Positions 324-47,198 of a stretch of DNA of 64,000 nt are shown one piece after another. Location of the stretch: positions 7,427,036-7,491,035 of the forward strand of contig OX335643.1 in the NCBI GenBank assembly GCA_946894095.1, given 5' to 3'. Position 1 is the first letter of the stretch. Each line of letters starts with the position of its first letter. The notes under the pieces were generated by a model, which was not told the DNA's origin, did not search any database, and worked only from the letters and a program-made list of their open reading frames with translations. Both the position numbers and the translations under genes were made by a program. This stretch comes from Incurvaria masculella. Lineage: Eukaryota; Arthropoda; Insecta; Lepidoptera; Incurvariidae.

Positions 324-674
324 CTTTCTCATTTCGTCAGTGAATCCTATGCGACTTCCAAAGCGCCTCTTAACTGTATCCTCGTCGGCGAGCACCTGCA
401 CTAGGTCTCCTTCCACAAACTCTCCCCTCGCTGCATCGATCGTTGTCTCTCTCTCCGTCGTTGCATCTCTCTCCGTCGTTGTCTCTGTTTCCGTCGGTGT
501 TTCTGTCTCCGTCGTCGTCTCTGTATCCGGGTGGGATGAACTCGTCTCACCGACGATGTACCCCGGGACAGTGCGGGCGCTGACCTTCACCACAGCGATG
601 GCGGCTTCATTTCCATCTTGATCCACAAGTTCACATTTGTACCAGCTCAAATCCTCAGGTTTTACGTCATTTAT
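324..674 (-). CDS. Gene A exon 16: Ig-c 3' part fused to MIB-1d
   Basis: Residues 587-703. It opens after CACACAG with INDVKPEDLSWYKCEL (F/G strands and second Ig Cys), runs through a Thr/Glu-rich linker (TETETPTETETTTERD), and ends with the MIB first half EFVEGDLVQVLADEDTVKRR. The donor is AAG|GTTAGT at 323. In modules a and b these two parts are separate exons. Here they are one open frame, with relic splice signals inside (donor-like GTGAGA starting at 550, acceptor-like ACAG ending at 521) only 30 nt apart, too short for a normal intron. Confidence 0.85.
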
Positions 675-3600
675 CTGTGTGCAGTTCCAAACGAGCTCAA
701 TGTTTTATATGGTACGAGTGATGCTGAAACCTCTCAAAATCCATGGTACTCGTAATTATTATTATAATAGGGTTATAATTCAACCCTAGACTAGAGGAAC
801 ACATATGTGCGCAAGACTTATATGATTTTCTCATGGATATTAAAAAAAATATCATCAAAATCGGTTCACCCTGGCGAAAGTTATGAGGTAACAAAGATAA
901 AAAAAAACATACAGACGAATTGATAACTTCCTCCTTTTTTGAAGTCGGTTAAAAATCACTCACATGGACACATGTTACAACTAAACCGAACTTATAACGA
1001 ATTAAAGCGAAGGAAATACTTTTTCACCAACCAGGTAATTGACACTTACAAAGCAAGTGTTACGTGCAATTTTAGTGAACAGTTTTAAAAAATAGACTTG
1101 ATGCGTTCATAAAATAGTTTAAAAAAAAAGTTCACTACCAATTATGAACTAAAAAGTACATGTATCCGTTTTAAGCTAATAGTGTACTTGAATCATAATA
1201 ACAGTAATTATAAAACCGATATAATAACAAATAAAATTAAAATGAAGAGCCGTTGGCTGAATACACGTATTTTATTCTACCGAATGTAGAATCCAATGTA
1301 AAAATGATGTGTCCACATTACCTGCAGTGTCAAGATTTGCGATGCCCCTTCGAGACGCTCTTCAATGTCAACTCTACCAAATAAATGTTCGTGATAGATG
1401 ACTTCGTCCCCCTTTACCTGGCATACGAGGAATGCATGTTATGAATATCATACATCTTTTGATGTTGAATATTTTCCTAAATTAGCTAGTTATTTCTGAT
1501 AATATAAAACTGAAATTCATACAGGGTGTTAGCGGAGGTATGGTGTTCCTTGGCAAATTTGGAGCAAAAAACATTTTTGTGTACGACTGAAAATAATGTT
1601 TTCTACCTTTTTTGCTCCAAATATGCCAAGAAACACGTGGTTAACATTTGGACCATACCTCCGCTAACACCCTGTATAATGTTAGTAAATATTTTTTTTT
1701 AAATCGCAATTAGGAAAATTATGCAGGTGTGATTCAAATAATCTATAGCATTTAAGGTGGGCCATCCTGCTCAACTCCCCATAAAAACGGGGAAAGAAGA
1801 TCACGCCCATATTTCTTGTCAGAGATCCCAAATTTTGCTCAAAATAGCTTTATTTGATTGATGACCGTTGGCATTGTAAAATTGTGTTTGGTTCTAAGTT
1901 ATAAGGTCCGAAAGTTCGAATTTTTCACGCGTTTTATACAATAACTTTGAGGTGGATTAAGCAATGATAAAGTAAGAACATCTTAAAAAGATTAGTCATG
2001 AGACATAGCTTAATTAATCAAGATTTATAATCGATTTGGGTTTTGTTTGATTTTTTTACTATAGCGGTCGTGGTTTGCATTTTAGCTGTAAGTCGTTTTG
2101 TAATTAAAATTTTCGTAAATGTTACCAAATCATATTATTCACTATGCACATTGTCTTTTTTATGGACATGTTGCATCTTTCTCATCACGGAGCCTGTCTT
2201 TTTCTTTGAAACAGAGAAGGTCCAAGAGCGCAACATCTCGGTTTTGTACCGTGCCCGCGAATGAGTTAGTCCCGCCGGGTTGGGCCACCTTAAGGGGGTT
2301 AATCAGTATCGAGACCTGCGGCCTTATAACCGAACAGCGATAGTCGCTGCCAGCGTTAGTATCGCTGCTAATGAGCCATCGCATACAAGATTTTTCGGCT
2401 ACCATCGACTTACCGATACCCTATGTCGATGGCGGCTACAGATAAAAATTAATTGCGGTTGCCTATCTTTTATCCGCAGTAACGGTAGCCGCAAAATTTG
2501 GTATGCGATGTCTCCTTAGCAGCGACACAGTCGCTGTTCGGCAATAAGGCCGCTGAATTGATTGAGGATAAAAAAATGGAATTAAATAAAACCTTTTTTG
2601 TCATACATATCTGAAGTAAATTTATATAGCGGAACCAATTTTGTACCGCATTTTTGCAACTATACATTTCACAAATCGACTTAGTTTCTGATACTTACCA
2701 ACCGCGTTAAGGGCTACAGATGAATTTAATTACCTACACCCTGTATAAATGGAACTCCTAATTTTAATTGGAAAATATAAAACAAATCTGTAATCTTTTT
2801 GACGTATTTGTTTTGTTCATAAATTCATAAGCAAGTTATATTTGATAAATAAGATTTGGTTATTATTATAAAATGAAGACGTTTCATATGTTCAGTATCG
2901 ATCACAATCTTTGTGTATTCATAATCAATATTTAAATCTTGGAACTTCAAAACGAGAAAACAAATAATTTAAAAGCTTAAAAAGTATATTAACTGGGTCG
3001 TTATAACTTTTCATTTCATCAAATTTCAGTTTTATTAAACAAATTACTCACCATTTTCACAATAAATTTGGAGCTTTTTTCCGGTACTGTGCATGTTAGA
3101 TTCACAGAATTTCCTATTGTCGTACGCATAATGCTGATTGTTTCTTTGCTATGAACACATTCTGTAAAAAATATTGATGTTTAAATATGAAACACATTAA
3201 TACAACGAAATAAATCTCAGCTTAATAAATATGTTTACGATAAGTTAAAAAAGGTGGGAAATAAATATATCCAGCAGTATTTCATTTTTAGAATCAAACA
3301 AGTTTTCTAAAAAAAATGTAATAGAGTTGTACTAATAAAACAAGATTACACTACTAAAATAAAAAAGCTGCATGGGTTGCATACTAGCAAGCAATCCAGT
3401 CACGAGGAGTACATTGCGTATAACATTTCTGCCACTCAAAAAATATTGAGGCATTCCTTTAGGCTCCGACTGAGTTCAGCGGGGATCTCCGTACGCATTA
3501 TATTTGCGTTAGGGTTCATTGTTGTATGCGCGTCAGAATCGTTTTCATGCGAGCGTGACGAAGCGAAATTGTTTTTAGTCTGTAAAGTCTATTATTTAAC

Positions 3601-6600
3601 GTAAATTTATATATGTTTCACGCTAATTCACTAGATAAATATGTGATCTTGTACGACAAAAAAAAATCTAAATCATTTATTATCTCCAAGCGCGCCGCCT
3701 GGTGTTTACAAAGTTATTTCTTATAAAGAATATAACCGGCGCATTAAAATCGGTTTACGGTCATACACTAGATAATAGTCCAAACTTTGATATTTTTTAT
3801 TTTTTAATGGGTGTTTATTCTTAACTGACGCTGAATTTTTGTTTTATGCAACATGGATGGCAAAAACCACTATCGTTATGATATTAGCCCAATACACCAG
3901 ATTCCCGAAGGAATTAGTTGCCTTACCAGGACCTTCCCTTTATGAGCACTACTACATTGAACTGGATGGAAAACACGGACAATTTTTCATTACCGCTTCG
4001 ACCATCTTTTCATCAAATGCGATGGTACCAACCCGGGCGGGCTTAAACCCTACCACCTAGTAGGGGACCTACAGTTTTACATGGATTCCGAACCATGCAT
4101 TTGTGACGAAATGCACTTATCGAAATCAGAAAGAGAAAGAAAGTGGTGTATGTAGGAGCGAGGAATTGAACCCAGACCTCTAGTACGCTAGGTCAGTTCC
4201 CGCGCCACTAGGCTACGAGCAGCTCGTAAATAAAAATAACCCAAAATTATTGGAGATTAGCGTCATATGCAGCCTTAAGGAATATCGGGTGGTACGGTAC
4301 GTTGATTCTTAGTTTTTTTAATGCATCATGTTGCTGGATTAGCGGCATTGTTCATGAGGTATATTCAGGTTGCAGAACAATTCCGAACTATCGGAGGCAC
4401 TCGACACCGGCGGATGGACTGCAGGAAAACTCTCATGTGGGGTGGTAAAATTGCGGTAAGCCTGTTTAGGCAATCAAGTTCCATACAATGGCTTTATGGC
4501 CATATGCTTATAATAATTGATTAACTTACTTTTTGATATTTTTGGTGCACTACTTCCTGCCGAGGCGAGTTTGATGAGAGCCTTGGGGTGGTAATACCAG
4601 GTGTCACCACAAATTTCCACGTATAATTTCTTGTCGCTGTCTATCCTTAGCACTTTTCCTATTTTCCCCAGCGTCTTAAACAATGATAAACAGAGTTTTT
4701 TTTTTATGTGACTGGACATGGATGGCTAATACCACAAGTTCTGTCATGGTATTAGCCCAACACACCACATGGGAACTAGGTGCCATGCCAGGACCTTCCT
4801 TATATTGCACGGCTACATTGAACTGGATGGAAAACACGGACAATTTTCATTGCCGCTTCGACCATCGTTCATCCAATGCGATGGTACCATCCCGGGCGGG
4901 ATAAACCCTACCACCTAGTAAGTAAGGAAGGGGACCTACAGCTTAACGTGGAATCCGAACCACGGCCAGCCTCTCTTAACGGTCGAATGGTCACCCATCC
5001 AAGACCAGACCGGACCCAGCGTTGCTTAACTTCGGAGAGCGATCGCCGAAGTGTCGCGCCACTGGGCCACTGAGGCTGACAATACATTTTGACACATCTT
5101 GCCGGCACTGGCTAACTTACCATTAAGTAAATAAATATACTTTTTCGTACTAAGCAGGTACGTCGCTTATTCCAAGAAATTTGATATGAATGTATCACAC
5201 TGCACACTCTTCTTCGCCAGAAGTAATCGAACCGACAGGAAAGAAAAGACGAATCCGAGTGTGTAATATACATCTAATGGAGGAAATAAAGAAACTGAAA
5301 ACTGAAACACAATCGACCGTTAAGAAAGGACACATTAATTAAAGAAAGAGCTCAGTAAAAAGAATTACTTTACGAATATACTGCAAGGCTGGACGCGAAC
5401 TAGCAAAACATACCATTCGCGGATATTGCGTCTTCAAATTTCGCCGCAGTCCCTCCTCCCGTAATCAATGCCTCCTACTAACACAGTGTTTAAGATTATA
5501 CCTACATACATTTATTTAACTCTTCATTTGCGTTGCGGGCATTGACTGCAAAGATTGAACATTCAAACATATTGATACATACAAATGTTATGTGTAATAC
5601 AAATCTTATATGTAATAAGTCAACCTAATACTGGCTCTAGCGTCTGATGCCAAATACGATTTTGGTGACGACGGCAATATGTTTAAAATAAAATTGCGTG
5701 AAAACTGTTTCTAGCTTTAGTATTTTTTTTATATTCCTTGCGTTCTATATTCCGTAAAAAGGTACTTTCCAATCTGTTTAAATGACAGTACCTCTAGAAA
5801 TTGCACAGTTGCACGCATGATTTGCGTAGCCGTATTGTTCAATCAGTTATGAGTGTTATTTTTACTTAGGGTTTCTGCCACCAAGTACTGATTTACTTAA
5901 TCTTCACATTAAAGGGATTTTCTGGCCATCTTGCAATCGATACTAGTACAAGATATTGTATTGTATTTGCATTCTTTATTCATCATCCATAGAGACTACA
6001 CTGCACTCGGATTTGTCATATTTTAACATTGGCCAGTTCAGCAAAACAAAACACAGCGAAGAAGAATTGGAAAGAAACTCCGCTGTTTTTTTTTCAATAT
6101 CCACTTAGTCTGAATTTACAAAAGTGTTTGTCAATTATGTTTTTGTTGTAGTTTATCATAAACTACTACAGTGAGCTGATAACATGGTTACATATCCCTT
6201 TCAATGCTACAACCTACAGAAAATTAAGAGCATAATGGTTTGAGAGCAGCCCCATCAATAAAGAAAGAATATATTCCCGTATGGGATTTTGACCAATACC
6301 CGGAAACTTAACTTAAAATACATAACTAAAATAAAATAAAATTCGGGTGTATATAGCCCTCGTCATTATTGATACGAAATTGTATCAAATCAAAATGTAT
6401 TGGTCAGTAACTTCATACTGCACGTAGTACTTATCAATGATAATGAGCACTTAAGTAATAAAGGCACTTTAAGTGTCGATTAAAATAAATCAGTAGTTGG
6501 TGAAAACCAGGCTCAGCCGTACTATCAACACTAGCATCGGTCTAAATAAATGTTTAATATTAACTGTTTGGGCTCATTTATAGATACTTTACTAAAATGG

Positions 6601-9600
6601 ATTGCATTTTAACTGTGCTAAAACAGAACAGTTTGAAATAATTTAATTTCTGTGATGATTTCGTGTTACAATGATCCTATGAAATAAAACGCAGCCAACA
6701 TAAGATTACCTGCTGCATTTTGCTGACAAAGCCGACGCTCTTCTCGTGTATCACTCTAACTTTGTCTTCGTCGGAGAGCACCTGCACCATGTCTCCTTCC
6801 TCGAACTCTCCCACCGCAGCCGGAGTCATCTCTCTCTCTAGGTAGGGTGAACTTGTATCTGTTGCAATTAATGCAAACATAAATTCTCTCTTTGAATTTG
6901 AATTTGAATTCCTCTAAGACATTTTACGACTGTCGTGAAGTCATCTCTGGCTCTCGGGCTCTGAGATTAAAACATTTGAAGAAATACTCTCTATGTCCAT
7001 TGCCCAAGGCACAATTTTGCCCGCCGACTGCGAATAAAACTAGCGTAATCGTAATTCGGGCCCTAACGTTTCCCACCCCTAAAAGTTATCGAATCTTATA
7101 AAAAAAATCTTGGTTTTATGACAGTAAGTTTTTATTTTTTAGTAAATATCTGTTTTTTGCCATTGAAATAAAATATAAAATGACAGTAAAAAAAGACAAC
7201 TTTTTTCAATATTTTCTAATCTAAAAGGTTAACCATAAAAATAAAAAAAACATTTGGATGTACGTTTCAAAAATATATTTTTGAATCCAAACTTAAAAAA
7301 ACCTAGTAAAATCGCCCGTAGTTTAAGGAATTGACAGGGTAACGACTGTCTTAGTAATAGAATGAAACAAAATGAAAATATGCAAGAGACCAGCGGTCTT
7401 TTAGTAGCTTCAGGGTACGAGCAGCTTCAAATAAAATCAATGTTAAGCCAAACTCACTTGCTTCGCGCAACACCTTCACAGCGCCGGCGGCAGCCAGTCC
7501 TTCGTGGTTCCTAAGCTCGCAACTGTACCAGCCGGCATACTCAGACACCATATTTTCGATCTGCCCGAAAATGTGTTCGATTATGAGGTCATAAGAAAAC
7601 CAACAAATAAGTCTATGAGTAATTGATGTTTGAAAACATCATGTTTGGATATATCTAATCATTTAGAAGAAATGAACCCCAATGTATTACAATCAAGGAT
7701 TTCATATATATTTTTTTATGTGACTGGACATGGATGGCTATATCACAAGTTCTGTCATGGTATTAGCCCAACACACCACATAGGAACTAGATGCCATGCC
7801 AGGACCTTCCTTATATTGCACGGCTACATTTAACTGAATGGAAAACACGGACAATTTTCATTGCCGCTTCGACCATCGTTCATCCAATGCGATGGTACCA
7901 ACCCGGGCGGGATAGACCCTACCACCTAGTAAGTAAGGAAGGGGACCTACAGCTTAACGTGGAATCCGAACCACGGCCAGCCTCTCTCAACGGTCGAATG
8001 GTCACCCATCCAAGACCAGACCGGACCCAGCGTTGCTTAACTTCGGAGAGCGATCGCCGAAGTGTCGCGCCACTGGGCCACTGAGGCTGACAAAATTTAT
8101 GAATGGAGATATGTTTTCTTATTCAATCATGCCACATCGGCCCAACCGTCATTGTCGTCGACTAGTCTTTTGACCAGCCCTTTGAGTTACTATTCATGTA
8201 GAATATATTTCAGCCCGACATTGAGCCGAGCGGGACCGGGTACCTCAGCTAGTTCAGGATAAAGATGGGGGATCGACTCAGAGCATCTGACATCTAATAC
8301 TTCTGTTCATATTTGTTTGGTGATTCAAATCGCCACTACCATTTGTTTTATTAATTGAAAAGCTTACTTACCAGCATTGTGTAGATCGTAGTTGAATTTT
8401 CGTTTCGAATGCTGAGACGTTCAGGAATAAATTTTACACCATCCTTTAACTGTTGAAAACGAATTATGTATAAGTATTGAAATATTAAACTTCTATTTAT
8501 AATTAACAAATATTACATCTCCAAATATTCTCTTTTTAACGAATCAACAGGTTAACCCCAGAACGGTTCAATTGAAAACATAATATCCAATAACACTTTT
8601 CCAGAAAAATAAAAATCGAACAAAATTTAAATATGTCAAATAGTAGAAATCTTAATTACCCCTCAAATAAAAAAAACCTAGAATATAGGCCAGATATTCA
8701 CATTACGAATAACGTACTATCTTGAAAAGGCAACTATTACGCTCTTGGTTTCATATTTTGGAACCAATTACAGATTTTATGAGAAACTATCTGAAGCGAC
8801 AGTGGAATAATGCAAACTTTAACTAGGTAGATCAGTCGTTGCATGGATAAACATAGAAGATAGAAATCAAATAGCTCTTTTAACAAATTACCGTGACTTC
8901 AAAAACTTTGTTTTATTCTACGAAAGTCTAAAGACTTTAGTTATCCGAACACTTTACTATCTTCACTGCTCTCCTTCGGTTTAAATTAGAACCGGGAGCA
9001 ACAATCTGATTTCCACATGAAGGTTTCTATATTCTCTTGCTTCTTACGATGCATGGCTGCACGTATTTTGAAAGTATCAACATCTAAATATTAATATTAT
9101 GACTTTAAAACTATAATTATGAATGCTCACCCATGTCAGGTTATAGGAACGTTCGGGCGTGTTGTTATATGTAACTGCTTCCACTCTTACGGTATTACCG
9201 ATTCTCTCTTGCTTCACTTTGATCGTGGCCTCGGTATGGATGCAGTCTGGTCACATGAAATAATTTAAATTGAAATAAAAGCTTTCTTATATAAAACCAA
9301 TAAAAAAACATTGAAGACGCCTTGTCCGTTATCCTGAGACTCCTCATATTATTTAAGTAGGAGCCTAAGTTAAATATGAAATAGGTATCATAAATATGCA
9401 AAATATCATTTTCCTTTTATTTACCAATATCTGTAACAATGGTCTATGAATGATAAGCATACCTTTAGATACCAAAGGCGTACTGCTGCTGTTTGCTGAC
9501 TCGAGCTTGATTACTGCCTTGCGGTTATAAGCCCACGAAGTTCCACAAACACTTATTTGAAGGTCTCCACCATATTGGCTATTTTCGACGATTCCTATTT

Positions 9601-16557: not shown

Positions 16558-16606
16558 TTTCACTAAGTTGGTGACGGTTCTGCTCCACGCAATCAAATTG
16601 CGGGGA

Positions 16607-16614
16607 TATTTATA
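16607..16614 (-). promoter_or_regulatory. TATA box of gene A
   Basis: TATAAATA on the minus strand in the context GGGTATAAATATCC, 50 nt upstream of the gene A ATG. Transcription would start near 16580, giving a short 5' leader of about 20-25 nt (inference). Confidence 0.65.
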
Positions 16615-16697
16615 CCCGTTGAAATGTTTACTCCTCTTCTTCTTGGTATGAGATTAACCAAAGACCTTTGACATGATAAGCAATTTTGACTGATAAT

Positions 16698-16797
16698 TTT
16701 TTTTCATGAAAGCGGTCATCGGTGGCTAATATCACACGGCATTTCCAAAGGAATAATGTAGGTGCCATGCCAGGACCTTGCCTTTATGTGGGATCGG
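16698..16797 (-). mobile_element. Family T SINE fragment
   Basis: Diverged tail piece: TGGCTAATATCACACGGCAT, then GGTGCCATGCCAGGACCTTG. It lies just upstream of the gene A promoter. Confidence 0.6.
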
Positions 16798-16965
16798 TTA
16801 GCAAGAATGATAAGGAAGGTGACGAGATGTTCATAGTTCACTATCACCAAAAGTGTCACCAAAATCGTTATTCTCTTTTTTACAAAGAAATACCGCAAAT
16901 AATTGATTGAAACCTTCGTAGACGATAAGATAGGTTTGTAATGGTTCACATTTTTCATAGCTCTG

Positions 16966-17165
16966 CAGGCCTATTCCTATTCCTAATCAGGAATCCTGAG
17001 TCCAAAAAACCGCTGTTATTGCGGTTCTTAAAAAGATTTTTTTGACTAAAAAATCCTGGAGCATAATATTTCAATAAATCAAGCTCGCTTTGAAAACCGC
17101 TCTAAAATCGGTTTTCTAGACTCAGGATTCCTGATTCCTGATAACGGAATTCCAGGAATAGGCCT
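16966..17165. mobile_element. Foldback MITE family F, copy 1
   Basis: Almost fully palindromic 200-bp element: CAGGCCTATTCCT at the left, AGGAATAGGCCTG at the right, with inner arms carrying CAGGAATCCTGAGTC and GACTCAGGATTCCTG. Copies lie at 18169, 43172 and (decayed) 27000. Confidence 0.85.
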
Positions 17166-18661: not shown

Positions 18662-18713
18662 ATGGAACTCCCAGCAACTGTTAAAGTGATTTTATTTCTT
18701 GGTTTATGTTATG
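18662..18713 (+). CDS. Gene B exon 1: signal peptide
   Basis: 52 nt, [17 protein letters not shown], then a phase-1 donor TATG|GTAAGT. No clear TATA box is seen upstream. Confidence 0.9.
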
Positions 18714-30473: not shown

Positions 30474-30525
30474 ATGGAGCGTCTTTCTATTTATAAAGCA
30501 GTATTTTTGCTCACTTTAGTATGTG
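30474..30525 (+). CDS. Gene C exon 1: signal peptide
   Basis: MERLSIYKAVFLLTLVC, 52 nt like gene B, donor TGTG|GTAAGT in phase 1. Confidence 0.9.
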
Positions 30526-36500: not shown

Positions 36501-39500
36501 GTATTCGATCGTAACTGACGTGATCACCATGCAAAATAAATTGTTTTCTGTCACCAGGTAAAGGAGGGTATAGAATTATCTCGTGACGGTGACCTGAAGA
36601 TTTCAGACCCCCGCATCATGATAGTGACTGATGACTCATCAACCTTCACGCTGCAGGTAAAGTTGCATCAAAAGCTCGTTTGTACTTGTAATAGAGTTAT
36701 GGGTCTAGAATTAAATATTGAAAGAATCCATTAAAGTTCTTCGTAGCTTTTTTTACACGGTTGGATTGAATTTTTAACCGACTTCAAAATAGGAGGAGGT
36801 TCTCAATTCGTCCGTATGTTTTTTTTTGTTTTTTTTTATTCATGTTTGTTACCTTATAACTTTCGCCTGGGTGAACCGATTTTGATGATTATAATCGACT
36901 TCAAAAAAGGAGGCGGTTCTCAATTCGTCTGTATGTTGTTTTTTGTTTTTTTTTTTATGTTTGTTACCTCATAACTTTCGCATGCGTGCACCATGGAGGT
37001 GACATGGCGTGAACTGATTTTGATGATTATTTTTTTATTTGTAAGCTGGTGCTTTCCGTGTGGTCCTGTTTTAACTTGGTTTAGTCCTGACAATGATATC
37101 CATGAGAAAATCATATAAGTCTAATATTGAATTAAGTATGTGCGCCGTTTTAAAATCATAAAAGTCTTAAATTTGTATTAAGATGTGCGCGACAAATGGA
37201 CGAATAACGCAATATAACGCCAACCGATTTCGATGATTATTTTTTTATTGGAAAGGACGTGTACAAAATAGTTAGTGTACTTCAGATTCACTAAAAATAA
37301 ACAAATAAACAAAATAACAAAAAAATAACCGACTTCAAAGAAAAAGCACTAAAATAAAAAAAAATGCTATTTTTGTAGCTACGATTATTGTTATTTTTTG
37401 AGTCGGTGGCAGCCAAGGTAGCCAAGGTTATCATGACTGTCGCAGCGTGTGCCCGGCTGACGCCGACTCAAAAAATAACAATAATCGTAACTACAAAAAT
37501 GGCAATTATTATTTTACTTCTTAGTGCTTTTTCTTTGAAGTCGGTTTTTTAGGGTTCCGTACCCAAAGGGTGAAAACGGAACCCTATTACTAAGCCTCCG
37601 CTGTCCGTCCGTCCGTCCGTCCGTCCGTCCGTCCGTCTGTCCGTCTGTCACAGGGCTGTATATCAGAAACCGTGATAGCTAGACAGTTGGAATTTTCACA
37701 GAGTGTGTATTTCCCTTGCCGCTAGAACAACAAATCATAGACATTACGAAATAGTTAGAATTAAAGGGGGTCCCCATACAACATACGTCTATATTGTCTA
37801 TCCCGCTCGCACCCACTTCGCTGAGCCCGGCGTATGGCCCCCGCGACGCGCGCGCCGCCTCCCCGCACGCCAGTCTGCTCGATAGTCTTCTCGCTCACAC
37901 GTGCTAGACTTTATACACGCTGCGCGCGCATCTAGGTCTATGACTACTTTATATAGATGAACGCTCGCCTCGCGTCGGCAGTTGGTCGCGGACCATTCTT
38001 CTTGTTCGGTGGGGCGTTCGGCGCGGCGCGCGTCTTCTATGCACGCGCGATGTATTTACGATGCTTCGTCAATAATTTATGAAGTCGGTGTGTAGGTATT
38101 AACGCCATATGCAAATTAGAGATTGAATGTGATACAACATAAGAATATATTAAAAAACAAACATTTATTAAATATACAAAGCAAACGTATAGCATAGCTT
38201 TAACTAATTTGTAAATAAAATTATATAATATTTACCAAATACCAAATAATGAAATGAAATGAAATCATTTATTTGTCTCAATTATGGGTTGTACATGATA
38301 CGAAGAAACAATGCTCCCAAAATTCAAAATCATGTCCATGACTGTGTCTTCCATAATTTGCGTTTGACCGCGTACAAATATACATATAAACAATAAAAAA
38401 AAACTGAAAAGAATGTTGTTTTATAGATAATTCCCTTATAAACCTATAACTATTTATTAACCGACTTCAAAAAAAGGAGGAGGTTATCAAGTCGTCTGTA
38501 TGTTTTTTTTTTTTTTTTACATACAACATGTCAAATCAGTACATTTTTCATTGGCTTTTATGAAATATACAAATAGTATATGGTTTTTTTAGTAAGTACC
38601 TGTATATGGATAGCAATACAACACCTATTGATTAACATGATATTCGCCCAACTCACCACATGAAAACTAGGTGCCATGCCAGGACCTTACTTATGCTGCA
38701 CGGCTACGTTGAACTGGATGGAAAAATATCTCTACATATTTTGAACGTACCTAATATTGAATTTTTAGAAACATCACATTATTGCTGTAATGGAACAGAG
38801 AAGCTTTGTAAAAAATATCTAAGCAATTTTTTTATGCGACCAGACATGGACTACCGTTATGATATTAGCCCAATACAGCTGATTCCCTAAGGAATTAGGT
38901 GCCATGCCAGGACCTTCCCTTTTATGAGCGAGGCTCCATTGAACTGGATGGAAAACACGGACAATTTTTTATTGCCGCTTCGACCATCTTTTCATCCAAT
39001 GCGATGGTACCAACCCGGGCGGGCTTAAACCCAACCATCTTGTAGGGGAAAGGGACCTACAGTTTTACATGGATTCCGAACCATGGAGCAGCTCGCATTC
39101 TTGACGAAATGCACTTATCGAACTCGGAATGAGAAAGACAGTGGTGCATGTCGGAATTAAACCCAGACCTCTGGTACGCTAGGCCAGTCTCCGCGCCACT
39201 AGGCTACAAGCCGCAATATTTGCGGGTTAACATAACAAGTACCATACATAAATATTGCAAGTATGAAGTTTCTTTGCGGGTTCTTCTTCACTGGTTGATC
39301 GAATCCGCGGATCAATCAAATTGTGACATGACTTAGCCCCGGTTGCACGAAGAGACGGCCGAGTTAATCAATGTTCAAACACGTCACTTTTAGTGAACCG
39401 CATAGAGTTCCTTCCATACTGTCTGTACAAAGTGACGTGTTTAATCGTACATTGATGTTGATTTAAATTTTTTGTCCTTTTGTGCACTCGGCCCTTAGAG

Positions 39501-42500
39501 TAGTTTGACTATCAGAAGTAGAATAAATAAATGAAATAAAATTGTGTTTAGCTTTCAAAATGCTTTATCAATCACTTCAATGGGTAGGTAGGCAAAAACA
39601 TTTATCGTAAAATGTTTATATACATTTTCTGTTTAAAAAAAACGCAAAGGACGTTTTTGGCCTAGAGACCATTAACAATAAGTGATATATTATCGTTTAT
39701 ATCCACTTATGTGTAACAATTTTCTATCCATATGTAAGTCTATGGTGGGAAATCACCAACCGATGAAGGAAAGAGTTATAGAAACATTAAAAAACATATT
39801 TTTCAAATACATATATTTTTATTACTGCTTTTTCAGTTTCAACGTTAGTTTTTTATGGAACCAGTAAACCTGGTAACCTACAAACCTACTGTAAGGTACT
39901 TTCAAGGCTAAACAATGAATCATTACTATCATTATAAAAATAAGAAACAAAAAAGAAGGACATATCTTTTTCCAACGAATGTGATTTGTATGTACGTATA
40001 ATCGACCGTGAAGCAAGGACACTTTAATTAAAGAAAGAACCCAGTAAAAAGAACTACTTTACGATTATAATGCAAGGCTGGAACTGAACCAGCAAAACAT
40101 ACCATTCGCTGGTAGGTATTGAGTTATTCGGTCAAGTGAACTAAAATATACCAGTTGGCATGGTACGAAATTTAACTAAACGTCAAACTTAGCCCCGATT
40201 GCACGAAAGGACGGCTGAGTTAATCAATGTTCTAACACGTCACTTTTAGTAAACCCCTTGGAGTTGACGTTGATTTTGATTTTTTGTCCTTTCGTGCACT
40301 CGGCCCTCATTTTGCCTCCTTTGCCTATTCACCTGCTATGCACCTAGCGAATGATTTATCATGGTAACCAAACCACCCTGGATATTTGAAGGGCTTCAAA
40401 ATGATACAATTATGTTGATGATATGATTATATTAAGGGTACATGTTTTTTGGAGACACATTTATGTTGATTTCACATAATACGGTTCGAATCTGATAATT
40501 TGTCATATCAAGACGACTGTTGTTAATTTTTTTGAAATAGGCTTTGTAATGCATATTATAAAAATAAATATTTTTCCACGTTGCTTAAGTTACATTATTC
40601 TTCATGTATCAATTCTCGATTGAAGTTCCTCTCTTTTAATAAAAAAAATAATTTTTTTTTTGTAATGAGAACAAAAAAAACAATTTAAAGATATTTTTTA
40701 TATTCATCGTTACATTCAGCATTGGATGTTTGTAGCGGGTTCAAATCCCCGCCCCGTTTATGAATCACTTTCTTTCTTTTTCAGAATTGGATAAATGAAT
40801 TTCGTTACGAATGCGAGTTTGTTGGGAGATGATAGGTGCCCTTTCCCTACGATTGGTACCATCGCATGAGATGATAATACCTATGGTTGAAACGGCAATA
40901 ATAAATTGTCCATGTTTTCCATACAGTTCAATGTAGCCGTGGTGGTAAATAGAAGATCCTGGCATGTCACCTAATTCCTTCGGAAATGAGGGTAATAGCG
41001 GGTAGAGGCGAAGTTCAGAAAGCACAACCGAGGTTCCGTAATTTCCTTAAATATACGATGGTACGGAACCCTTCGTGCGCGAGTCCGACTCGCACTTGGC
41101 CGGTTTTTTTTTTTGTTAGATGAGCTTTATACTCTCTCATCGTTCTCTGAGAATAGTCTATCTTTAACCAAAAGCTTCTGTCTGGGCTCTGTCAGGAAAA
41201 CACTCAACCATAAATCCATAATGTTTCTGCTTACAGATCGACGACATCCAGGAGGAAGATGCTGGCGTTTACACCTGTGAGCATGGGCTCACCTCTGGAG
41301 GCGTCGTAGCCTCTGCCAAAGTGGAGCTTGTAGTCCAAAATCCACCGACCATATCCGACAACTCCACAAGCCTGCTGGTGGTGAGGGAAGGAGAACGTAA
41401 GTTCCTTCTTTTTCAGAAATTTTTGGAGGAAACAGATTAAACAATAAGGGGACATGGACGTAGTTTAGTGTAGTTTAGGCTATCCATGTTCAGTCACATA
41501 AATAAACCGGCCAAGTGCGAGTCGAACTAACATACGAAGGGTTCCGTACCTTAGATACAAGACTTAACACCAAATAATCATGTTTTTTGTGTGGGGGCCC
41601 CCTTTATTTTATATTATTTTTTAATGTTTCCTATTTGTTGTTATGGCGGCAAGATAAATTCACATTCTGTGAAAATTTCAGCTGCCGACCTATTACGGTT
41701 CATAAGATACAGCCCTGTGACGGACGGACGCACAGCGGAGACTCAGTAAAAGGGTTCCCTTGGCACCCTTTGGGTACGGACCCTAAAAAGGAGTCTTGGA
41801 GATCTCAGGAATCTAGTAGGTGGGTGAAAGAAAAGTAAAGGACAGGGACAGTTATCAGCGAAGCAGGTCCAGAAACATAATTAAGATGGCCCAAACCGGC
41901 GGCCCTAACTCATTCGCGGGCACGGTACAAAACCGTGCTGTTGCGCTCTGGGACCTTCTCTGTTTCAAAGAATAAGACAGGCTCCGTGATGAGGAAGATG
42001 CAACATGTCCACAAAAAAGACAATGTGCATAGTGTATGATTTGGTAAGATTTACGAAAATTTTAATTTCAAAACGACTTATAGCTAAAAGTAAACCACGA
42101 CCGCTGTAGTAAAAAATCGAACAAAAACCAAATAGATTATAAATCTTGATTAAATAGGCTATGTCTGATGACTAATCTTTTTAAGATGTTCTTACTTTAT
42201 CATTGCGTAATCCACCTCCAAAATTATTGTATAAAACGCGCGAAAAAAGCGAACTTTCGGACCTTATGACTTAGAAACTTTAATAAATGATAATGATAAT
42301 GCTAATGATAAAATATGACAAATCCGAGTGCAGTGTGCTGCCTGTGGATGATGAATAAACAATAAACAACAACAATACACAACAAACCAAACACAATTTT
42401 ACAATGCCAATGGTCATCAGTTCGATCAAATAAAGCTATTTTGAGCAAAATTTTGGATTTCTGACAAGAAATATGGGCGTGATCTTCTTTCCCCTTTTGT

Positions 42501-45500
42501 ATGGGGAGATGAGCGGGATGGGCCACCTTAATATGTGGTTATATCAAACGATCTAAGCCTGACCACCCTACTAATCGATTCCTTTGAGGGACACCAAAGA
42601 GTTCTTGAATAAATACCAAGCAATATAGTAAACATAACATTCTTTGGTTTTGTAGATTCCCTCTTTATTTCATTAGTTCCCTTGTACATGTTACATGTAT
42701 CCAAAACATATCACCATAGGATGTAAGTGTGAAATATCGGACTTGTACGCAATTCGTTAATATGTAGGTACCACGTACGTTTTACATATTAACTCAATGC
42801 TTGTACGTTAGTAAAGTTTTGTAAGCTAAGACCAATTTTTGTTTTGCAATGATGGTTCGACGACATGGTCCCTAGAAGATTGAATAGGATCTAGTGAACT
42901 ATGTATGTGAACAATAAGTATCACAAGTTATAATAATAAAGTATGATTTAGGTGTTTGTCTTGCTTAAAATCGATCTATAGAATATATCTACAGAAAATT
43001 CCAGACTTATTGGGGCCTTAGAGCGAAAGAGGTGTGCTGTGATCGTACCGTATCTCTGCCTACCCCTCCGGGTATGCATGATGTATGTGTAAACCGAATC
43101 TTAACTCTAGTTACCTTCCATTTGACATAAAGAAACCTTAAATTATTGTTTCGTGCCAGGTTCGTGGATCAGCAGGCCTATTCTTGGAATTCCGTAATCA
43201 GGAATCAGGAATCCTGAGACTAGAAAGCCGCTTTTATAGCGGTTTTCAAAGCGATTTTTTTGATTCCAGAGTATATAGTATTTCAATTTAATCAAGATTT
43301 TTCTGTCGAAAAAATCTCTATAAAGACTGTTTTCTAGACTCAGGATTCCTGATTCCTAATTACGGAATTCCAGGAATAGGCTTGCAGTACTGTGCTTTTA
43401 CAACTATCTATCCAGCAGTGTGTAGGTCTCGTTTCACTATGTAACACTCCGGCCATTAAGTAGTGGCTAAGAAACGTGAAAATGGCTCATTTTTAAAACA
43501 TCTGTTGTGGTTTTGCAGATACTCAGTTGGAATGCTACGCGGACGGTATACCCAAGCCGAATGTGACATGGCATCGTGTTTTCCGGGAGTCGTTTCCACC
43601 CATCAATGACCTCCTCTACAGGTTCGTGTTAATTTGAATCTATAGTGCCATATAGCTTATTTTGCGCGTGGCCAAAATCTGAACTAAACGGTTGCCATAT
43701 CGAACGTTCATCTTCGCGGCTACGGGGATGTCTTGCTATTATAACAATGCAGGTGACCCACTGCTAATTCATTTTAGGCTAAGGTTTTTTGTGGTTAAGT
43801 AATTATTAGTTTGTGAAGATATGTTTGTGGTTTAGGTTAGCCATACATATACATACCTTAACGCCGTTGTCCTGGAAGTTTTTTTTAAGTGACTGGACAT
43901 GGATGGCTAATACCACACCTTCTGTCATGGTATTAGCCCAACATACCACATGGGAACTAGGTGCCATGGCAGGACCTTCCTTATATTGCACGGCTACATT
44001 GAACTGGATGGAAAACACGGACAATTTTCATTGCCGCTTCGACCATCGTTCATCCAATGCTATGGTACCAACCCGGGCGGGATAAACCCTACCACCTAGT
44101 AAGTAAGGAAGGGGACCTACAGTTTAACGTGGAATCCGAACCACGGCCAGCCTCCCCAACGGTCGAATGGTCACCCATCCAAGACCAGACCGGACCCAGC
44201 GTTGCTTAACTTTGGAGAGCGATCGCCGAAGTGTCGCGCCACTGGGCCATTGAGGCTGACAGGAAGTGTAGTAGTAGTTGTTGTTTGATGCGAGTTGTAC
44301 TCAAAAACTCCTTGTTAGATTATAACGAAATAAAAAAATGCTGCATAAAGTCTTATTTAAATTGGATAACAAAAAATATCGTTTGACAGAGTTATAACCT
44401 CCGGGATTGACGTTGGGGTTTATTTTCTTTATAGAATTCAAGAAAACAAATCTAGCGGTAGTAAGTAACCCGACTTCTACAACCCCAATTTTTTTATTAA
44501 AATGATAAAAGATCTAATTTCGGTACATTTTGAATAATATTATTTACCTAAAATAGTAATTTTCATATCCTCAATGTTTGTTTCTTACAGCAGGCTGCAA
44601 ATATTTTCCCGATCAATGGGGATTTTTTTTTTATATGGTAACTCTTAAAAGACAGTGGTGACCTCAGCCACGCGCAAAATAAGCTATGTGGGGCTATAAA
44701 CATCGGCCACTCAGTCGAAAAAAGTAAGTGGTCCCTAAGTCCTATCGATGATAGAGTACTCGAAACAGACACTTCTACATATTTTTTGTTCCAAAGAAAC
44801 CCACGAATAACTTATTAGGATGTGTATTTTTTTATAAACCCTTGAAATTCAATTCAAGACCCAACGCACAGGAACTGATAAACATAACTGAACCATTTGT
44901 AATTGTACAAACATAATGCGGCAAACTGGGAGCACAGTAAGAAGACCAAATTGAATAACGAAGAAATCACTCCATTTAAGAGCTGTATTGTGTTCTTGTT
45001 TTAGCTACGTTTATCATGCTTTGCTCCAAATTGACCAGTTTCAGAAACGCGTTGTTCCTCTAAATACAATTGCATTCAAAGGGGGTGTGTGCGTCAAAAT
45101 AGATGGCGCCATGATCAATCGAAGCTATTTCTGCTATAAATATGAAGTTACAAACTATATCGATGTGCAGTAACTGTTGGAACGAGCATACATAGAAGTT
45201 TTCTATTAAATGTTATAAAACAATAACAAAAATATGATCGAATTTATTTTATTGTTACGAAGATGTATGCAAAAAGTTATCATTTGCAATTTGCAACTTA
45301 TTGCTCTCTGTCTCATAAATTATCTCACGGGCCTTTTTCATCTACTGCTGATTAGCTTAGTAGCCGCTTGCAAGTACAATACCAATACCTGTTACAAATT
45401 CAAGTACAAGATAATTAGGCTAGTTTTCACCAAGTGCTGATTTATTGTATAGTTTATTATATTTTATAATTATATATTAAAAGTATATTTTGTAATAATT

Positions 45501-47198
45501 GTTTTATAACATTCAATACATAAGTGCGTACCGTGGAGAGTTACAGCAGTAATACCCTCGAACGAATGTGGCGCCATCTACATGGGGTCAGAAACACCCT
45601 TTTATCAATTTAGGATTTTCTGCGCAGAACAATAAATGCGTTACACCACTATGGCGTTGCATTAGTTCAGACTGTACGAGTTTAAAACGAATTCAACCCG
45701 TGGCCATTTAGATCTAATCCAACAATTAATCTACTAAATCAAAGACTTCTGTTACTGTTTCTAGTGGTAGTATCCTGGAAATAGCGACAGTGCGCGAAGC
45801 AGATGGTGGCATGTACTACTGCGTTGCTGACAATGGAGCTGGTCGGTCAGTGAGGAGAGACGTCCGCATGGAGGTGTTGACCTCTGGAGTGAAACCAGTG
45901 GTGAGGATTTGAAGATTGAATCACTGATATGAGACAAACCGCAAGGAATGTTAGAAATTTGCTAAGGATACCCCAGATTTTAGCAGCGATGACCCAGATG
46001 GAATTCAAATATGCATCCCTAAGTCACAGTGATAATAATGGCGTAGGTGTGTTTAAGCTTTTAAGCCCAAAGATATAATTTTGAGTATGTTTTATGAATG
46101 AACTGGAACCGTTTTTAAAAATACATGGAGAATAATATATAAGTATGTTTTTTCATGTTAGCACATTACCTCGAAATGGTGTTACTGTTGTATGCCTAAA
46201 CTGTGTCAGAGTCATAAATTTGACAAGCAGTGACAGGTTGTAAATTATGTATTTCTTATTCTCTCCTAAAATATTTCTAAAATCGTCATTAGAGACATTG
46301 AATAAGCCAGAAATTAATTAGACATTAGAGATAGAAATATTATTCTGTCTGGGTATTTAAACAAATTGAATGAAAGCCAAATGTCTTTAGGGTCGTTTTT
46401 ACAACGTTAGACAGGTCCACATTTCATAAATTCCTCCTGGAGTCTTCTCTTTTTAAAGCTGCATAATATGCCCATACAGTCCAAATATCGCCACCGCGCG
46501 TGAATGTGCTTCCGAATAGGCATAGGCATCGCCCGCGAAATGTTTGCTTGCTAGCTCAAGGCTTGTAGCACAGAAAAGTAGTTATTTTTACAGCTTTTTG
46601 CTAAAGCCACACCGCAAAAGTAGTCGGTTTCATTACCATGGATGTAATTACGTCAGCCAACGAATTCCTCGATTATATTCGAATCGACACAATGCTACCC
46701 CTATCTTCACTAGATGGCGCTGATGATTTCGCGTATTGATCCTACGCTAAGGCATTTTGACTGCAATGATTGAGATATCAATTGTCGGGATAGCTCAGTT
46801 GTTTAGAGCAGTGGGCATGTAATCCAAACAACCCGGTTCGAATCCTGCTTCCGACGAATGTCACGACCAAAAACTTTTTTAGATTATTTAATAAAAAAAA
46901 TTACAATGCTTCAAATTTAGATATCGCTGAAAATCGAATTAATTAATGTGTCCTTGTTATACGATTCCACACATAAATCACATATGTACTATACTTACAG
47001 GTTGTATTAAAGGAACCCGAGGTCGCAGCTGTAACTCCCGCGCCGACTTTGTCGGATCAGCTGCAACACTTCACAGAAGAGATCACGAATTCCACCAGCG
47101 AGATACGCTACAAGTTCGAAGAGGTCAGCGAGAGACTGAAGGTGCTGGAGAAGGGACTTCTCCTTCCCGAGTCCTGTGGTGATGCTCCAGTGTCGTAG
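30474..47198 (+). CDS. Gene C: secreted MIB-repeat / two-Ig protein, Amalgam-like
   Basis: Nine exons join to 1146 nt, 381 aa plus stop. The exon order, phases and most exon lengths equal those of gene B, but introns are larger and filled with repeats (16.7 kb total). Order: signal peptide (1-17), MIB SH3 repeat (18-111), Ig1 (112 to about 226; Cys138-Cys197), Ig2 (about 227-310; Cys242-Cys290), and a helical tail (317-381). The MIB repeat is the most canonical of the set: GDIVLVNSDKEQV, GHGGWNEGMS, GKIGKV, VCGRTWYYNPEALTKF. The Ig parts share DDIQ-EDAG-Y-CE and [10 protein letters not shown] with gene B. No membrane segment is seen. Gene B is the tandem paralog upstream. The same functional inference applies: a soluble adhesion or recognition protein with an N-terminal peptide-binding module; partner unknown. 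Confidence 0.93.
30526..31423. other. Gene C intron 1
   Basis: No exon and no listed repeat family is seen; AT-rich with scattered short frames. Confidence 0.4.
31424..31563 (+). CDS. Gene C exon 2: MIB repeat first half
   Basis: Residues 18-64: GPMTTSVSAEKVVRGIKAGD, IVLVNSDKEQVKKMQS, GHGGWNEGMSA|GTAATG. Acceptor CTCCAG|GGCCAA. Confidence 0.93.
31646..32029 (+). mobile_element. 5S-rRNA-headed SINE (family S), plus copy
   Basis: Begins GTCAGCCTCAATGGCCCAGT; the 5S-like part is CTCCGAAGTTAAGCAACGCT with TTGGATGGGTGACCATTCGA. From TGGTTCGGATTCCA on it is the shared body, ending CCAGTCAAATAAAAAAAAAG. Confidence 0.92.
32150..32440 (+). mobile_element. Non-LTR reverse transcriptase fragment
   Basis: VVLDISKAFDRVWHRSLLGK is the RT domain A motif. 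After a gap and frameshift comes FFIFINELLSIGMNHTYAFD, in which the catalytic Y-A-D-D appears as Y-A-F-D, so the element is dead. Confidence 0.8.
32466..32865 (-). mobile_element. tRNA-headed SINE (family T), full-length
   Basis: Head (in plus orientation) CCGCGCCACTAGGCTACGA at 32847-32865; B box GGTATTGAACCCGGGC; tail at the left end ATGCGACCTGACATGGATGG after a T run. Confidence 0.88.
33120..33580 (+). mobile_element. Jockey-like ORF2 C-terminus, decayed
   Basis: Broken frames: RQRRYLRLFRDPHLTDTSES, then SLDVALWNLHP in one frame, and SNKLNSSVLIHKACSMVPR with its stop in another. The 3' part GCCTCGCTGAGCGTGG recurs at the left edge of the window (about 60-100). Confidence 0.72.
33726..33867 (+). 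CDS. Gene C exon 3: MIB repeat second half
   Basis: Residues 65-111: ACGKIGKVELIDGDDDVKVK, VCGRTWYYNPEALTKFGT, ending HITG. Acceptor TTACAG|GCTTGT, donor GGGG|GTAAGG, phase 0 to 1. Confidence 0.94.
34949..35064 (+). CDS. Gene C exon 4: Ig1 first part
   Basis: Residues 112-150: EECRGAPEISITKKRVRKIG, KLVDFDCTV with Cys138, ending YVRW|GTGAGT. Acceptor TTTCAG|AGGAAT. Confidence 0.94.
35150..35950. repeat. Long dispersed repeat Q, copy 2, split by element P
   Basis: Matches 3400-4320 in order. It is interrupted by element P at 35271-35524, whereas copy 1 is interrupted by a SINE at a different point. Confidence 0.6.
35271..35524 (-). mobile_element. Element P, copy 3
   Basis: Reverse orientation: AGGGTTCCGTACCCAAAGGG at the left, CCGTCCGTCCGTC microsatellite, and GGTACGGAACCCTTCGTGGA, GTCCGACTCGCACTTGGCCG at the right. 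It is nested in repeat Q. Confidence 0.85.
36558..36656 (+). CDS. Gene C exon 5: Ig1 middle part
   Basis: 99 nt, residues 151-183: VKEGIELSRDGDLKISDPRI, then MIVTDDSSTFTLQ|GTAAAG. Acceptor CACCAG|GTAAAG. Confidence 0.94.
36776..37330 (+). repeat. CGACTTCAAAAAAGGAGG repeats, two partial copies
   Basis: Two starts, at about 36778 (GACTTCAAAATAGGAGGAGG) and 36898 (GACTTCAAAAAAGGAGGCGG), each followed by CAATTCGTC(C/T)GTATGTT, a T run, and GTTACCT(T/C)ATAACTTTCGC. It is a shortened tandem or nested arrangement. Confidence 0.65.
37327..37551. mobile_element. Large foldback element with AACCGACTTCAAAGAAAAAG ends
   Basis: Left arm AACCGACTTCAAAGAAAAAG, then TTTTTGTAGCTACGATTATT and GTTATTTTTTGAGTCGG. 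The right arm is the reverse complement (CCGACTCAAAAAATAACAAT ... CTTTTTCTTTGAAGTCGGTT). Arms are about 80-90 nt around a 60-nt GC-richer centre. The right end runs straight into element P copy 4. Confidence 0.8.
37549..37790 (-). mobile_element. Element P, copy 4, truncated
   Basis: AGGGTTCCGTACCCAAAGGG, a long CCGTCCGTCCGTCCGTCCGT microsatellite, CACAGGGCTGTATATCAGAA, then decay after GGGGGTCCCCATACAACATA; the GGCCAAGTGCGAGTCGG end is missing. Confidence 0.75.
37780..38060. other. CpG-rich island within an AT-rich intron
   Basis: Dense CGCGCG-type sequence (GCGACGCGCGCGCCGCCTCC, GGCGCGGCGCGCGTC) follows the truncated element P. No coding similarity is recognised. It could be part of a larger repeat, the lost end of the P copy's host sequence, or an internal promoter. 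Confidence 0.45.
38590..38728 (-). mobile_element. Family S SINE body fragment
   Basis: CTCACCACATGAAAACTAGG, TGCCATGCCAGGACCTTAC and CTGCACGGCTACGTTGAACT show the S-type variant of the shared body; the head is absent. Confidence 0.65.
38826..39211 (-). mobile_element. tRNA-headed SINE (family T)
   Basis: Tail TTTTTATGCGACCAGACATGG at the left, head CCGCGCCACTAGGCTACAAG at the right. Internal ACTACCGTTATGATATTAGC follows directly after CATGGA, so a short tail segment is deleted. Confidence 0.85.
39333..39497. mobile_element. MITE family H, copy 1
   Basis: Inverted ends TTAGCCCCGGTTGCACGAA and GTGCACTCGGCCCTTAG, with inner inverted ACACGTCACTTTTAGT and AAAGTGACGTGT. 165 bp; the second copy is at 40189. 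Confidence 0.75.
39960..40120 (-). mobile_element. tRNA-like SINE (family N), partial
   Basis: AATCGACCGTGAAGCAAGGA, AATTAAAGAAAGAACCCAGT and GCAAGGCTGGAACTGAACCA match the copies at 5220-5530 and 55490-55810. Confidence 0.6.
40189..40308. mobile_element. MITE family H, copy 2 (internally shorter)
   Basis: TTAGCCCCGATTGCACGAAA left, CTTTCGTGCACTCGGCCCTC right, lacking the ACTGTCTGTACAAAGTGACG segment of copy 1. Confidence 0.7.
40720..40995 (+). mobile_element. Diverged tRNA-headed SINE
   Basis: B-box-like GCGGGTTCAAATCCCCGCCC is followed by a decayed body (GATAAATGAATTTCGTTACG, GGTACCATCGCATGAGATGA, CAATGTAGCCGTGGTGG, ATGTCACCTAATTCCTTCGG). An element P scrap (41051-41114, GGTACGGAACCCTTCGTGCG) follows. 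Confidence 0.65.
41237..41396 (+). CDS. Gene C exon 6: Ig1 end and Ig2 start
   Basis: Residues 184-236: IDDIQEEDAGVYTCEHGLTS with Cys197, then VVQNPPTISDNSTSLLVVRE. Acceptor TTACAG|ATCGAC, donor GAAC|GTAAGT. Confidence 0.94.
41504..41791 (+). mobile_element. Element P, copy 5
   Basis: AACCGGCCAAGTGCGAGTCG start, GAAGGGTTCCGTACC, GTTATGGCGGCAAGATAAAT core, TTTGGGTACGGACCCTAAAA end, about 100 nt after exon 6 of gene C. Confidence 0.82.
41881..42531 (-). mobile_element. TTAA-flanked MITE, copy 3, with insertion
   Basis: TTAA-GATGGCCCAAACC at the left and GGATGGGCCACC-TTAA at the right, reverse orientation. About 110 nt at 42275-42385 (ATGACAAATCCGAGTGCAGT, AATAAACAATAAACAAC) is foreign; a relative of that insert occurs at 60600-60665. 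Confidence 0.82.
43172..43384. mobile_element. Foldback MITE family F, copy 3
   Basis: GCAGGCCTATTCTTGGAATT left and AATTCCAGGAATAGGCTTGC right, inner CAGGAATCCTGAGACTAGAA and TTTTCTAGACTCAGGATTCC. It lies 130 nt upstream of gene C exon 7. Confidence 0.85.
43519..43621 (+). CDS. Gene C exon 7: Ig2 first part
   Basis: Residues 237-270: HTQLECYADGIPKPNVTWHR, then VFRESFPPINDLLY. Cys242 and the Trp are in place. Acceptor TTGCAG|ATACTC, donor TACAG|GTTCGT. Confidence 0.94.
43879..44260 (-). mobile_element. 5S-rRNA-headed SINE (family S), copy 4
   Basis: Same layout as 4696-5080; head GTTGCTTAACTTTGGAGAGC in plus orientation, tail AAGTGACTGGACATGG at the left. Confidence 0.9.
45060..45190 (+). 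repeat. Dispersed repeat with AGGGGGTGTGTGC / TAGATGGCGCCA
   Basis: AAAGGGGGTGTGTGCGTCAA, AATAGATGGCGCCATG and TTTCTGCTATAAATATGAAG recur in order at 55320-55440. Nature unknown. Confidence 0.5.
45329..45444 (+). mobile_element. MITE family G, short copy
   Basis: GGGCCTTTTTCATCTACTGC at the left, TAGTTTTCACCAAGTGCTGA at the right (internally rearranged). Confidence 0.6.
45765..45900 (+). CDS. Gene C exon 8: Ig2 second part
   Basis: Residues 271-316: [38 protein letters not shown], ending GVKPV. Acceptor TTCTAG|TGGTAG, donor CAGTG|GTGAGG. Confidence 0.93.
46784..46855 (+). tRNA. tRNA-like sequence, probably a pseudo-tRNA or SINE head
   Basis: 72 nt with a perfect 7-bp acceptor stem (GTCGGGA/TTCCGAC with one G-T pair), a D arm GCTC...GAGC, A box TAGCTCAGTTG and B box GGTTCGAATCC. 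The anticodon stem (GTGGG/TCCAA) and T stem (CCCGG/CCTGC) have mismatches, and position 33 of the loop CATGTAA is A, so no isotype can be assigned. It lies in intron 8 of gene C, and an A-rich tract follows. Confidence 0.45.
47001..47198 (+). CDS. Gene C exon 9: helical tail and stop
   Basis: Residues 317-381: a Pro-rich linker (VAAVTPAPTLS) then DQLQHFTEEITNSTSEIRYK and FEEVSERLKVLEKGLLLPE, an amphipathic helix, one Cys and TAG. It aligns with gene B exon 9. Confidence 0.93.
   Translation, partial: VVLKEPEVAAVTPAPTLSDQLQHFTEEITNSTSEIRYKFEEVSERLKVLEKGLLLPESCGDAPVS

Follow-up and report, generated by a model that had tools for sequence, protein, structure and literature searches.

Mind bomb SH3 repeats joined to immunoglobulin domains in an apparently secreted protein family of the moth Incurvaria masculella

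Immunoglobulin (Ig) proteins of the DIP, IgLON, Lachesin and Amalgam type have about three Ig domains and are mostly membrane-anchored. Hemolin is secreted and consists of four Ig domains and nothing else, and Dscam1 provides a large insect Ig repertoire that acts in wiring, has been proposed to act in immunity and owes its diversity to exclusive exon choice. To our knowledge, Mind bomb has no signal peptide, and we know of few cases in which an intracellular signalling domain has crossed into secreted proteins. Mind bomb is described as an E3 ligase that combines mib/herc2, ZZ, ankyrin and RING domains (PMC3979679), and the REP region of MIB1 is stated to bind the C-box of Jagged1 and Delta, this C-box being an intracellular part of the Notch ligands (PMC11887331). 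Hemolin, an Ig protein of insects, is reported to bind surface molecules of pathogens, and Hyalophora cecropia has a single gene for it (PMC11999971).

In the window, by which we mean the whole stretch of 64,000 nucleotides analysed here (C3:7427036-7491035 of a genome of 552 Mb in 31 contigs), three neighbouring genes, A, B and C, join a predicted signal peptide and MIB-type SH3 repeats to Ig domains; we refer to this combination as MIB-Ig. With the REP region of Mind bomb 1, MIB-Ig proteins have in common the SH3_15 domain, its internal phase-0 intron and a cysteine before the conserved tryptophan, whereas none of the ligase parts of Mind bomb was found in the portions scanned and they have a predicted signal peptide, one repeat per unit and an extra linker cysteine. 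Unlike the DIP, IgLON and Lachesin proteins, they contain two Ig domains, or single Ig domains alternating with MIB repeats, and no anchor was seen. They differ from hemolin, which has no MIB repeat, in their MIB repeats, their differing Ig number and their many units, and from Dscam1 in that their diversity comes from duplication of genes and units (under predicted splicing).

Gene models and domain content

An earlier note on this DNA had proposed three neighbouring genes with exon chains in frame. All three are present, and the chains, assembled manually on the basis of splice signals and reading phase, remained in frame when re-derived from the DNA; the motifs that the note had named were visible in stop-to-stop frames of at least 60 amino acids over the whole window. 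Gene B (18662-26958) and gene C (30474-47198), both on the plus strand, are each predicted to have nine exons that form a complete open frame from ATG to stop, of 389 and 382 amino acids respectively, with a common phase series (0,1,0,1,0,0,1,2,0) and a common plan of a signal peptide, one MIB SH3 repeat, two Ig domains and a C-terminal amphipathic helix. In gene B, exon 1 (18662-18713) encodes the signal peptide, 17 residues then (G); exons 2 (20878-20999) and 3 (21612-21759) encode the two halves of the repeat, MIB-a and MIB-b; exon 4 (22145-22266) carries the linker cysteine and the start of Ig1, exon 5 (24450-24548) the middle of Ig1, exon 6 (25277-25439) the end of Ig1 and the start of Ig2, exon 7 (26050-26152) Ig2 and exon 8 (26437-26590) the end of Ig2; and exon 9 (26755-26958) encodes the amphipathic helix, a terminal cysteine and the stop. 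Gene C is divided likewise into a signal-peptide exon encoding MERLSIYKAVFLLTLVC(G) (exon 1, 30474-30525), a MIB-a exon (exon 2, 31424-31563), a MIB-b exon (exon 3, 33726-33867), exons for the linker cysteine with the start of Ig1 (exon 4, 34949-35064), the middle of Ig1 (exon 5, 36558-36656), the end of Ig1 with the start of Ig2 (exon 6, 41237-41396), Ig2 (exon 7, 43519-43621) and its end (exon 8, 45765-45900), and a last exon for the amphipathic helix, terminal cysteine and stop (exon 9, 47001-47198).

Gene A lies on the minus strand, where its in-window part runs from 16557 down to 324 in 16 exons encoding 703 amino acids (predicted splicing). Its plan is a signal peptide followed by successive MIB-Ig units, with three full units and the MIB-a half of a fourth inside the window. 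Exon 1 (16503-16557) encodes the signal peptide MELAVLFFKSFLFFTVFL and ends in phase 1. Unit 0 comprises exons 2 (15199-15326, MIB-a), 3 (14268-14412, MIB-b), 4 (13193-13302, linker cysteine and first part of the Ig domain), 5 (12637-12735, Ig middle, with a GC donor) and 6 (11942-12053, Ig end). Unit 1, which lacks the first Ig cysteine, comprises exons 7 (10422-10585, a Thr/Glu-rich linker and MIB-a), 8 (9463-9610, MIB-b), 9 (9131-9246, Ig start, with that cysteine replaced), 10 (8372-8449, Ig middle) and 11 (7458-7560, Ig end). Unit 2 follows with exons 12 (6710-6858, MIB-a), 13 (4530-4674, MIB-b), 14 (3052-3161, Ig start) and 15 (1322-1417, Ig middle), and exon 16 (324-674) encodes its Ig end, another Thr/Glu-rich linker and the MIB-a half of unit 3, beyond which the gene extends past the left edge of the window. 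The coordinates given here for the three signal-peptide exons and for the first MIB exon of gene C amend those of the earlier note, and its several MIB repeats per gene are found in A, with a single one each in B and C.

Across the three genes, 31 of 32 donors are GT and one, that of A exon 5, is GC, and all 31 acceptors are AG. The MIB exon pair has phase 1 at both borders in each of the five complete pairs in the window (A units 0-2, B and C). By eye, the GC donor lies within a perfect inverted repeat whose 16-base arms enclose a 4-base loop (12616-12651).

The assignment of these exons to the MIB repeat survived a profile check, which returned Pfam SH3_15 and human MIB1. Among bare exon frames, SH3_15 was matched in 7 of 10, with five matches at 7.5e-5 or better, four of them above the curated cut-off of 24 bits, and two weak ones (0.096 and 0.17). 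All three longer inputs scored above this cut-off: B without its signal peptide (9.2e-16, 58.3 bits), C from exon 3, which holds only the second half of the repeat (7.7e-6, 26.5 bits), and the window part of A from exon 7 (9.9e-29, 99.9 bits). Against the PDB, the spliced MIB part of B matched human MIB1 (4tse) at 4.8e-30, mainly through the second repeat (i-Evalue 6.1e-18). When five reference repeats were compared, MIB1 repeat 2 scored best in 28 of 28 paired units (17 human, 11 the moth's own) and was closest by percent identity in 27 of them; identity to the moth's own mib1 repeat 2 was 33-55% over the 28 units. These matches identify the domain shared by the three genes as a genuine MIB repeat. 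No RING, ankyrin, mib/herc2 or ZZ domain rose above cut-off in the Pfam-scanned parts of B, C and A, in which SH3_15 and Ig families were the only ones to do so; the left part of gene A was scanned with the family's own profiles only.

The Ig domains of all three genes, also proposed earlier, match Ig families above the Pfam cut-off, with Ig_3 scores of 86.5 bits in B, 90.3 in C and 45.3 in A (cut-off 30 bits). Among the best 60 of 245 distinct PDB sequences matching the Ig part of B, MDGA1 had the best E-value, DSCAM was present, and Dpr-interacting proteins, OPCML and neurotrimin aligned along most of Ig1-Ig2, a likeness to the DIP, IgLON, Lachesin and Amalgam type. The first-unit Ig domain of a further gene, D (see below), had titin as its best match, followed by DSCAM, LRIG1, neurotrimin, DIPs and others.

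The predicted signal exons of A, B and C have 17 or 18 codons and all end in phase 1. A blind scan for such exons, with hydropathy and donor thresholds that we set ourselves, gave a single candidate ahead of each of B and C and none ahead of A at the thresholds used; the signal exon of A was first spotted by eye and later recovered with a profile in which this exon was itself included. The absence of a membrane segment, asserted in the earlier note, held up in a 19-residue hydropathy analysis, where the best values after residue 25 were 1.24 for A (window part), 1.07 for B and 0.87 for C. No hydrophobic C-terminus was seen by hydropathy in B and C, nor by eye in A and D, and N-glycosylation sequons are present in MIB-Ig proteins. 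From these features of the predicted proteins, MIB-Ig proteins are apparently secreted.

Descent from Mind bomb and extent of the family

The moth's own mib1 and mib2 were read in the genome on C5 and C9, respectively. Repeat 2 of mib1 and both repeats of mib2 contain a phase-0 intron just before the LGKIG-type stretch, mib1 repeat 1 has no internal intron, and the secreted MIB units have a phase-0 intron at this same place. As the secreted repeat keeps the intron of mib1 repeat 2 and the mib2 repeats, it derives from Mind bomb exons. The MIB-b exon of mib1 seems by eye to end in phase 1, at a weak donor, as in the secreted units, whereas the start of the MIB-a exon is in phase 0 for mib1 and in phase 1 for the secreted units, so this 5' border is not common to both. 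The earlier proposal of an extracellular reuse of the Mind bomb repeat agrees with the signal-peptide exons, sequons, Ig cysteines, lack of a membrane segment and intron common with mib1 and mib2, and such reuse appears to be the best reading of them. What was a mib1-type MIB exon pair is now a phase 1-1 module placed behind signal-peptide exons and before Ig exons, in keeping with the 1-1 phase rule for shuffled exons of extracellular proteins. MIB-Ig is thereby a clean, testable case of a domain switching compartment, in which the domain donor can be named (MIB1 repeat 2), the accompanying intron is still in place and the gain of a cysteine hints at adaptation to oxidising surroundings.

The secreted repeats are about equally identical to the human and to the moth's own MIB1 repeat, and the capture is therefore old or the copies are evolving fast. 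In a tree of 34 rows of repeats, the secreted repeats are split: 15 rows stand by themselves (95/90), and the other 13 fall among the Mind bomb repeats, in a region with several poorly resolved forks in which the moth's own mib1 repeat 2 sits on a short branch; a single clade of secreted repeats was not rejected (AU p 0.489). First units of genes A, D and E group together (100/99), and eight last-type units do so with less support (93/94).

The family stands as proposed and is wider than had been claimed: gene A extends past the window, and further copies lie on the same chromosome. A genome search with PF18346 gave 26 matches, three on C5, three on C9 and 20 on C3. With a 41-residue MIB-b query we obtained at least 51 matches genome-wide, of which one (mib1) is on C5 and at least 50 are on C3 in two clusters, at least nine of them at 7.41-7.46 Mb (five inside the window) and at least 41 at 6.02-6.55 Mb, these counts being lower bounds. 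Among 50 C3 matches, 49 were stop-free and one had an internal stop.

About 270 kb, part of the DNA of these clusters, was scanned with profiles. Gene A runs about 20.6 kb past the left window edge and ends near C3:7406387 in a helix exon of the same kind as in B and C. By profile scans of the flanking DNA, it has six MIB-Ig units in total, with one Ig exon broken, namely the frameshifted first Ig exon of unit 4 (C3:7412300-7412700). A recent tandem duplication within gene A was observed at C3:7421500-7427500 (window 1-465 and the left flank). It contains near-identical MIB-b exons at 7425977 and 7422983, both with AG before and GT behind, which are either alternative exons or include a decaying copy, the latter being considered because the duplicate MIB-a is incomplete. 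In gene D (C3:6453012 to about 6496597) we found four MIB-b exons accompanied by Ig exons, as well as a helix; the profile scan did not detect one of its Ig middle exons, and a signal exon is likely (profile E 0.025). A third gene of the short type starts at C3:6.015 Mb, with a signal exon, MIB repeat and first Ig domain within the stretch scanned. The number of MIB-Ig units thus counted per gene is one in B and C, four in D and six in A.

Splice sites recur across the scanned loci. The MIB-b acceptor was at its expected place in 29 of 29 matches, and among matches reaching the border we found the Ig first-exon donor in 26 of 26, the Ig middle acceptor in 15 of 15, the Ig middle donor in 6 of 7 and the Ig last acceptor in 33 of 33. 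The MIB-a donor was present at a fixed offset in 22 of 24 scored matches, a scoring that left out five shorter matches, and the other two had GT directly behind the match.

The view that no family like MIB-Ig has been described agreed with the open-access literature, where narrowly framed searches gave none and none was met among the top-ranked results for broad topics; the pair may already figure in automatic annotation elsewhere. A search of mature B against 5.8 billion protein sequences yielded 5728 candidates, none at E <= 0.001. As plain Ig proteins were not returned either, this points to a collection with few or no insects rather than to a rare family. Viral contigs contained no relative of MIB-Ig.

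Cysteines, constraint and possible roles

The cysteine of the MIB domain is kept in all 29 MIB-b exons and is also present in mib1 repeat 2. A second, linker cysteine is the second residue of the Ig first-exon match in all 26 matches reaching it (one of 27 was too short), a count with a mild bias as the profile itself held that cysteine. In 23 of these 26 the acceptor falls in phase 1 exactly at the linker cysteine, and for B, C and the 6.015-Mb gene, which make up the remainder, its AG lies one codon earlier in the same phase. No counterpart of the linker cysteine was found in the stretches examined behind mib1 repeat 2 and mib2 repeat 2. This pattern suggests that the newly acquired linker cysteine behind the MIB domain may be the partner of the old MIB cysteine.

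Mature B has seven cysteines, one of them near the C-terminus behind the helix, and mature C has eight, with the C-terminal one placed as in B and an extra one in the MIB repeat; because the count in C is even, the argument for a free cysteine rests on B. In genes A and D, two cysteines immediately preceding the helix take the place of this C-terminal one. For B, the predicted helix spans 37 residues and has core blocks at pLDDT 96-97. Its heptad contrast, taken over 38-residue stretches of our own choosing, was reached by none of 5000 shuffles for B and none for C, by 48 for A and by 140 for D, the heptad pattern being clearer in B and C than in A and D.

Constraint was estimated as dN/dS for 16 hand-grouped, non-independent pairs of units of the first, last and short types, with middle units and some duplicates omitted. 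Of 32 estimates 29 were finite, and 28 of these were below 1; the exception was one Ig pair with dN/dS 1.46, dS 0.20 and few changes. A further set of 24 estimates, partly from the same pairs, gave 23 below 1 and one that was saturated. As dN/dS is mostly below 1, the copies compared have mostly been kept as proteins. In three first-unit pairs, dN/dS was 0.19-0.27 for MIB and 0.58-0.75 for Ig, and Ig dN exceeded MIB dN in 10 of 16 pairs. A general rule that MIB is conserved and Ig free to vary fails, however, as MIB dN/dS was above that of Ig in 8 of 10 last-unit pairs.

We consider it probable (roughly 0.7) that these genes form a large family of secreted MIB-Ig proteins, multivalent and joined through their helices, that act in extracellular recognition or adhesion. 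The MIB-Ig unit has multiplied within genes and as whole genes on one chromosome. Each unit would be a rigid pair locked by a new disulfide from the MIB cysteine to the cysteine at the Ig start, and the C-terminal heptad helix with its adjacent cysteines could hold chains together as dimers or oligomers. Extracellular protein or peptide partners may be bound by the MIB faces as well as the Ig faces, and the role would most plausibly lie in defence within the haemolymph, or in contact between tissues or gametes. We infer a function in recognition or adhesion; if it lies in defence or in gamete or tissue recognition, the family would be a new Ig-based repertoire. Considerably more tentative is the full scenario, in which a cytosolic Notch-ligand-binding domain became a secreted repertoire of at least about 50 stapled and oligomerised units, of varying valency, for haemolymph or surface recognition, probably in insects.

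Other readings of the same genes must be weighed against this one. With the architecture unchanged, the proteins could serve mostly in structure or reproduction (as parts of egg coat, seminal fluid, silk or matrix), with the MIB repeat as a mere spacer between Ig domains. The regular repeats, the Thr/Glu-rich linkers of A and the sequons suit extended matrix or mucin-like proteins, and the many tandem copies and the higher MIB dN/dS of most last-unit pairs also fit. Stronger constraint on MIB in the three first-unit pairs would be odd for a spacer, a weak objection as the last-unit pairs disagree, and we regard this reading as unlikely. Far less credible is that the genes are mostly pseudogene debris, that is, a decaying duplicated chimera that is not translated. 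The frameshifted Ig exon in A unit 4, the cut-off duplicate MIB-a, the GC donor of A exon 5 and the single MIB-b match with an internal stop are what such decay would leave, whereas B and C each keep an open frame through nine exons, from ATG to stop, donors and acceptors are nearly all canonical (31/32 GT, 31/31 AG), 28 of 29 finite dN/dS estimates are below 1 and 49 of 50 C3 MIB-b matches are stop-free. As a general account, debris was rejected on these open frames, splice sites and dN/dS values.

The closeness of the repeat to MIB1 repeat 2, part of the REP region, might also suggest secreted regulators that still bind Notch-ligand tails through it. We hold this to be highly improbable, since the C-box is intracellular and beyond the reach of a secreted protein, and since each unit has a single repeat and not the pair. 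As a secreted copy cannot reach the C-box, the partner of secreted recognition or adhesion proteins of the MIB-Ig type must be new.

Other features of the window

Several further elements were observed. In an intron of gene B (22630-23300), frames resemble a fragment of a non-LTR reverse transcriptase, a likeness that we presume from a motif. A tRNA-like match (Rfam RF00005, 35.7 bits) lies in the last intron of gene C at 46784-46856, where ARAGORN calls no tRNA; it is perhaps the head of a SINE. A repeated element occurs at about 4910-5110, 7920-8120, 31600-31820 and 44000-44290. Its copies resemble what we take to be 5S rRNA in their letters; a 5S-derived identity was not upheld, as Rfam gave no match for the first copy. 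At the right end of the window (60033-64000) is a zinc alcohol-dehydrogenase-like gene, in which Pfam ADH_N exceeds the cut-off in one frame and narrowly misses it in another. An exon of this gene lies within a tandem array of 136 bases in 3.4 copies that reaches the right edge (63538-64000), and long open frames run through the array.
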